37,342 bases of DNA from Opitutales bacterium (GTDB lineage Bacteria; Verrucomicrobiota; Verrucomicrobiia; Opitutales; Coraliomargaritaceae): assembly GCA_030729385.1 (NCBI GenBank), contig JANQXM010000073.1:1-37342 (forward strand), read 5' to 3'. The position numbers were made by a program, and so were the translations under genes. Under the pieces are notes generated by a model. That model worked only from the letters and a program-made list of their open reading frames with translations. It ran no database searches and was not told the DNA's origin. How positions within the stretch are numbered: the first letter of the stretch is position 1; the number at the start of each line of letters is the position of its first letter. Of this stretch, positions 19,455 through 19,750 are shown piece by piece.

Positions 19455-19546
19455 AGACAAAAAAGGCGCACTTCCTACCCCTAAGAAGTGCGCCAACCAT
19501 TGTCTACTTATTCTGTTACCCCAAACTCCCTTGCGGGAGAAATTTG
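19455..19546 (+). ncRNA. Candidate structured RNA, copy 1 (CCTACCCCTAA loop)
   Basis: An outer stem AGACAA/TTGTCT (19455-19460, 19500-19505) encloses a perfect 10-bp stem, GGCGCACTTC against GAAGTGCGCC, with the C-rich loop CTACCCCTAA. About 20 bases later a second hairpin CTCCC-TTGC-GGGAG (19526-19539) is followed by AAA. A diverged second copy 209 bases downstream keeps both hairpins. The plus strand is chosen because C-rich loops are typical of regulatory RNAs; strand and transcription are unproven. GGGAG also lies 10 bases before an ATG opening a 16-codon frame, so a leader with a sequestered ribosome site is an alternative. Confidence 0.45.
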
Positions 19547-19663
19547 TTGATGACCCAGATAAGATACACTTTTTTCTTTGCGGCAAGTGTAATTCATTAA
19601 ATCTGCAATTTACTTAATTCACTTATAACTAGCATAAGTTTTACTTATCCTATGTATCTATAA

Positions 19664-19750
19664 ACAAAGTGGCGCGAAGCCTACCCCTAAACCTCGCGCC
19701 ACACTGTTTTCTGCTTTGTCTTATTAACCCAACTCCCATACACGGGAGAA
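19664..19750 (+). ncRNA. Candidate structured RNA, copy 2 (CCTACCCCTAA loop)
   Basis: This is the second copy of the element at 19455. The outer stem is ACAAAG/CTTTGT (19664-19669, 19714-19719). The inner stem GTGGCGCGA/TCGCGCCAC (19669-19677, 19694-19702) encloses the same 11-base loop CCTACCCCTAA at 19680-19690. The second hairpin is CTCCC-ATACAC-GGGAG (19733-19748), again followed by AAA. The inner stems differ in sequence from copy 1 yet pair, which is covariation and argues for selected structure rather than chance. Confidence 0.45.

Follow-up and report, generated by a model that had tools for sequence, protein, structure and literature searches.

Comparative sequence analysis indicates that the two structured elements found at positions 19455 to 19546 and 19664 to 19750 of the window (the whole 37,342-nucleotide stretch analyzed here, from an Opitutales genome) are a tandem pair of sibling small-RNA (sRNA) genes that lie on the minus strand and belong to an Opitutales-wide family of predicted regulatory RNAs of roughly 100 nt that has no entry in Rfam. 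An earlier description of the window by itself (the sequence-only reading) had placed both elements correctly and had taken them for two copies of one structured RNA, whose stems covary while the apical motif stays unchanged, a view that the paired stems of the relatives support. The comparison of relatives supports the proposed strand, the architecture, the covariation, the order-level distribution, the different promoter types of the siblings and the conclusion that the RNA is not the leader of a downstream gene. On balance, we consider it probable that the two copies are trans-acting sRNAs with separate promoters and a shared G-rich module, which would act by base-pairing and independently of Hfq.

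Architecture of the two copies

Read along the minus strand, each unit consists of a -35- or -24-like box, a leader of about 10 to 20 nt, a first hairpin (P1), a single-stranded J box, an A-rich linker, a GC-rich second hairpin (P3) and a U-run (Table 1). Each copy is predicted to have its own promoter and, in P3, its own intrinsic terminator; both P3 hairpins were recognized as such on the minus strand, each with a loop of 4 nt. The 11-mer CCTACCCCTAA is found at exactly two places in the 2.59-Mb genome, both at this locus. As the sequence-only reading had noticed, the inner stems differ between the copies and each is matched to its own partner, while the 11-mer does not vary. The outer stems that it had also described are present in both copies of the window (7 and 5 to 6 bp) but do not form a conserved helix among the relatives. 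We infer that both copies are transcribed from start sites close to those in Table 1 and that they function in trans.

Table 1 Features of the sRNA locus (window coordinates)
Feature	Positions	Strand	Remarks
sRNA gene copy 1 (class A)	19459..19553	-	predicted transcript of ~95-100 nt, putative start; R1 covariance match 19455-19548, 97.6 bits
Copy 1 candidate promoter	19558..19587	-	-35-like CTTGCC 19582-19587; poor -10, TATCTT 19561-19566 or CTTATC 19558-19563
Copy 1 P1 hairpin	19526..19539	-	CUCCC-GCAA-GGGAG; from folding; P1 covaries among relatives
Copy 1 J box	19515..19525	-	UUUGGGGUAAC; single-stranded, conserved
Copy 1 P3 terminator hairpin	19465..19494	-	GGGG tetraloop 19478-19481; U-run 19459-19464
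sRNA gene copy 2 (class B)	19661..19764	-	predicted ~104 nt, putative start from the -24 box; R1 covariance match 19661-19755, 88.4 bits
Copy 2 candidate promoter	19776..19791	-	TTGGCACACTAAGTGT; sigma54-type -24/-12-like box, GG-N10-GT; the consensus -12 GC is GT here
Copy 2 P1 hairpin	19733..19748	-	CUCCC-GUGUAU-GGGAG; from folding; P1 covaries among relatives
Copy 2 J box	19721..19732	-	UUGGGUUAAUAA; GGGUUAA here, GGGGUAA in nearly all relatives (one-base difference)
Copy 2 P3 terminator hairpin	19669..19702	-	GGGG tetraloop 19684-19687; U-rich tail 19661-19668
dciA (DUF721) gene	19868..20233	+	Pfam DciA, 3e-13; divergent from copy 2

Coding strand and conserved fold

The sequence-only reading implied an RNA transcribed from the plus strand that exposes a C-rich loop. 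Both copies fold far more stably than dinucleotide shuffles: the z-scores were -5.9 (minus) and -5.7 (plus) for copy 1 and -4.3 (minus) and -4.0 (plus) for copy 2, so that copy 1 folds nearly equally well either way. However, the P3 stems of 150 distinct elements (selected solely on their flanking sequence and Watson-Crick pairing, and not independent samples) contain 167 G-U and only 3 A-C pairs when read on the minus strand, a ratio that stays at 49 to 3 in the same set when the near-invariant U.G position is left out. In P1 the corresponding ratio is 23:1. Since only the RNA strand tolerates G-U pairs, the C-rich loop is the complement of the real motif, and a plus-strand RNA would turn the 167 G-U pairs into A-C mismatches. 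Its hairpin would also adjoin an A-run instead of a U-run; the U-run and the conserved promoter boxes lie on the minus side, the boxes on that side only, and 66% of the 10 nt following P3 there are T. The pair asymmetry and the position of the U-run led us to reject the plus-strand reading, to which we give next to no probability.

On the RNA strand, the 11-base loop reads UUAGGGGUAGG and folds into a GGGG loop of 4 nt that is closed by three pairs, conserved as A-U in 132, U-A in 133 and U.G in 101 of 136 elements; GGGG was part of the search key of this analysis, while the closing pairs were not.

In a covariance model of 26 relatives, 98% of the P3 cells were paired and 9 of the 10 pairs had changed on both sides. 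A long stem had been the reason to include some of the 26, so that more neutral evidence comes from the slide control and from the BLAST homologues. When the set was extended to 119 distinct members, in an alignment fitted to the covariance model, P3 was paired in 99.2% and P1 in 89.8%, and all 15 pairs (including the 10 of P3) changed on both sides. The outer stems lack such support: the longest pairing between the A-rich linker and the U-tail averaged 7.5 bp in the relatives against 6.2 in shuffles. In two genera of the same family, the class A copies have a further hairpin (P2) between P1 and P3, which also covaries. One locus of genome G053 (L033, 1448-1502) has a second terminator-like hairpin with the same UUAGGGGUAG apex immediately upstream, which replaces P1 and displays the apical motif in two hairpins.

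Distribution in Opitutales

Covariance-model searches recovered the RNA from 136 of 223 Opitutales genomes, covering 64 of 83 genera; a number of families lacked it, mostly those with small genomes. Among the matches listed for a draw of genomes from the class (51 of 286 genomes matched) and for another of 289 genomes from the phylum, all were Opitutales. A pattern scan of 84,980 GTDB species gave at least 118 stretches and, among the matches listed, nearly all belonged to Opitutales or Verrucomicrobiota, the cultured Pelagicoccus mobilis being one of them. The exceptions among these were one Parcubacteria metagenome-assembled genome (MAG) and one MAG labelled Akkermansia, which we attribute to contamination, mislabelling or chance. 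With the locus as BLAST query, almost every genome of the same family yielded a homologue, as did several further families of Opitutales. Rfam 15 had nothing at the gathering threshold, either in the window or for the RNA of 20 related loci, which agrees with the previous claim that no nameable RNA family was matched. Outcomes that the sequence-only reading had named as refuting it therefore did not arise, given the relatives with paired stems and the lack of Rfam or viral matches.

Genomes carry from one to six copies, some in tandem. Together with the covarying stems and the conserved GGGG apex, this is what would be expected of sibling sRNAs, i.e., paralogues with a conserved core and variable stems. 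In a genome of the same genus (G001), equal-score class A copies are located on two contigs (C29, 13599-13691, and C86, 7637-7729), either by recent duplication or as an assembly duplicate.

Inverted-repeat structure and a variable number of copies per genome are also features of mobile DNA, such as a REP sequence, a transposon end or another DNA repeat. Against this, there are just two copies in this genome, the neighbours are conserved in several genera, the single-stranded boxes are maintained and the G-U bias is that of an RNA strand. Viral contigs did not contain this RNA and no match to phages was found with this locus as query. The low copy number and the lack of viral or phage matches led us to reject this interpretation, which we regard as extremely improbable. 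Close to copy 1, past its 3' side, a 25-nt inverted repeat (GTAGCGGCGGTCG.. / ..CATCGCCGCTAC) is found at 19237-19330; it contains inner palindromes and resembles a REP sequence, and its core is unique within the window.

Candidate promoters of the siblings

A generic sigma70 scan called no promoter in the sRNA region and, because of this, the promoter assignments rest on conservation among relatives. Several boxes were much more frequent in the 143 upstream regions of the relatives than in shuffled sequences: TTGAC (37 versus 11.8), CTTGC (35 versus 10), the sigma54-type TGGYAY-N7-GC in its strict GG-N10-GC form (12 versus 0.4) and the ECF-type G[GA]AAC-N15..17-CGTC (6 versus 0.2). The candidate promoter of copy 1 was assigned from its resemblance to the CTTGCA/TTGAC boxes that are conserved in its relatives. 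Copy 2 may have a sigma54-type promoter: compared with the TGGCAC-N5-TTGC type, its box in the window keeps the sigma54 spacing, with GT for GC at -12, and the strict form occurs in relatives, among them the class B copies of two same-family loci (L136 and L143). This genome encodes RpoN. An extended -10-like TGTTATA (19772-19778) overlaps the sigma54-like box.

Gene neighborhood

dciA is a conserved neighbour of the sRNA pair in several same-family genomes. A cis-acting leader or attenuator, with P3 as a regulated terminator of the downstream gene, could be imagined from several Opitutaceae copies that lie 65 to 200 nt upstream of a same-strand gene coding for a DAHP-synthase-like or a PIN/PhoH-like protein. 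However, the downstream gene varies by family, and the nearest downstream ORF shared the strand of the RNA in 33 of 54 cases and lay on the opposite one in the other 21. Such mixed orientation implies that the RNA is not the leader of one gene, and we rejected the leader interpretation on this basis; in the window itself, the next same-strand gene begins 365 nt away. We consider a cis-acting role quite improbable, slightly less so than a mobile origin. Conserved promoter boxes, terminators and varied downstream genes are, as far as sequence can tell, what a short independent transcription unit would present.

Some positions are conserved within families (here, the names YgfZ-like, DAHP-synthase-like and PIN/PhoH-like come from reading the sequences and were given without a family search). 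At seven Opitutaceae loci (L097, L101, L106, L111, L115, L117 and L130), a copy of the TTGAC type occupies a conserved position upstream of the DAHP-synthase-like gene and is mostly divergent from a YgfZ-like gene. Another copy is found upstream of the PIN/PhoH-like gene at five loci of the same family (L107, L109, L112, L119 and L128), and four of these five (all except L119) have an ECF-type promoter (GAAAC/GGAAC-N16-CGTC). At L133 and L139, from the same family as the window, a class A copy is located approximately 180 nt upstream of a same-strand gene for a 552-aa repeat-domain protein, which resembles ribosomal protein S1 (rpsA). In the window, an ORF of 121 aa (22028-22393), 2.3 kb from the RNA pair, codes for a protein that resembles a ribosome hibernation-promoting factor.

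Possible mode of action

We propose that the copies would be expressed under different conditions, copy 1 from a housekeeping-like and copy 2 from a sigma54-like promoter, and that both would feed one shared effector module, in which a single-stranded GGGGUAA box and a GGGG tetraloop atop the terminator provide two G-rich sites. This module would act in trans and need no Hfq; most likely, it would base-pair with C-rich sites of the UACCCC type in target RNAs, and inputs from different stresses or nutrients might in this way converge on the same targets. Hfq was found neither in this genome nor in 141 genomes of the class, and the RNA does not qualify as an Hfq-dependent sRNA.

The targets suggested by the sequence-only reading, G-rich ribosome sites contacted by a C-rich loop, do not fit an RNA-strand motif of GGGG. 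The complement, TACCCC, was not enriched at the translation starts of 860 genes, a weak test in a sample that held the sRNA genes themselves (GGGGTA came out on top). A broad anti-mRNA role is thus unsupported, while a few targets would escape this test. Also against the proposed model, the P3 motif offers a small seed with only four unpaired bases, window copy 2 departs from the usual sequence in its J box and at -12, and some Opitutales families lack the RNA. When the exact 11-mer was used as a target query, it matched outside the RNA about as often as a reversed control pattern did. A small target set, an RNA partner or a protein partner are all possible.

The main competitor is a protein-titrating RNA similar to CsrB/RsmZ or 6S RNA, in which the two GGGGUA sites would sequester an RNA-binding protein. 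One short motif shown twice per molecule, single-stranded and at a hairpin apex, would suit such a role; the apical closing pairs are kept, as a protein site would predict, two RRM-domain proteins are encoded in the genome, and mRNAs lack a general enrichment of the complement. On the other hand, two sites per molecule are few for a sponge. CsrA was not detected in this genome and the apical loop is GGGG rather than that of GGA-loop sites; a CsrA sponge was rejected for lack of CsrA. RRM proteins do not track the RNA: two genomes (G052 and G053) carry the RNA with no detected RRM, and family f2 has RRM proteins mostly without the RNA; an RRM partner was rejected because the co-occurrence is not strict. 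Titration is a serious contender that we still hold to be unlikely; base-pairing by the two GGGGUA sites is, in our judgment, roughly twice as probable.

Comparison with described sRNAs and implications

No sRNA family has been described for Opitutales in the literature searched, nor did the motif strings appear in it, subscription journals being largely outside its scope. A matching design is found in the alpha-r14 "cuckoo" sRNAs of Alphaproteobacteria (e.g., NfeR1), in which differing stems likewise present one ultraconserved unpaired motif, the C-rich anti-Shine-Dalgarno CCUCCUCCC (PMC10746234). However, alpha-r14 RNAs are recognized by CCUCCUCCC in unpaired regions, whereas the Opitutales motif is GGGGUA, of opposite polarity, and the two are related neither by sequence nor through Rfam and belong to different phyla. 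In Caulobacter, the four alpha-R8 siblings SisA-D share an invariant 10-nt core (UUUCCUCCCU), have unrelated promoters and different expression, and work with Hfq (PMC12559287). The Opitutales siblings resemble them in having copies under different promoters and differ in that Hfq was not found here.

In Helicobacter pylori, a bacterium without Hfq, the sRNA RepG uses its own terminator loop. RepG targets a homopolymer repeat (PMC8295292); it pairs to a G-repeat, whereas the Opitutales sRNA bears the G's itself. Overlapping sigma54 and sigma70 promoters have been described for glmY by a reference cited in PMC4211561. GlmY/GlmZ and Qrr are also sibling sRNAs, to which the Opitutales RNA has no Rfam match. 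The Qrr sRNAs are multicopy, with an invariant core, and their copies are co-regulated, in contrast to the differing promoter types of the Opitutales siblings. FopS of Bacteroides is another group of multicopy paralogous sRNAs, from a phylum that uses the RRM protein RbpB (PMC11697453); its sequence is different, and RRM proteins do not strictly co-occur with the Opitutales RNA. Given the opposite, G-rich polarity and the lack of any Rfam covariance match, the Opitutales RNA is not a member of alpha-r14, SisA-D, Qrr, GlmY/GlmZ or FopS.

More tentatively, and with rather more doubt than hope, the family might be an Hfq-independent, order-wide hub for the integration of signals, in which a twice-displayed G-rich effector has been duplicated under housekeeping, sigma54 and ECF-type promoters and meets a partner, RNA or protein, of a type new to Verrucomicrobiota. 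A conserved, multicopy and covarying sRNA family with cultured hosts would offer a direct way into RNA regulation without Hfq, and with the reversed, G-rich core and the differing promoters of the siblings one could clearly test whether duplicated sRNAs integrate signals.
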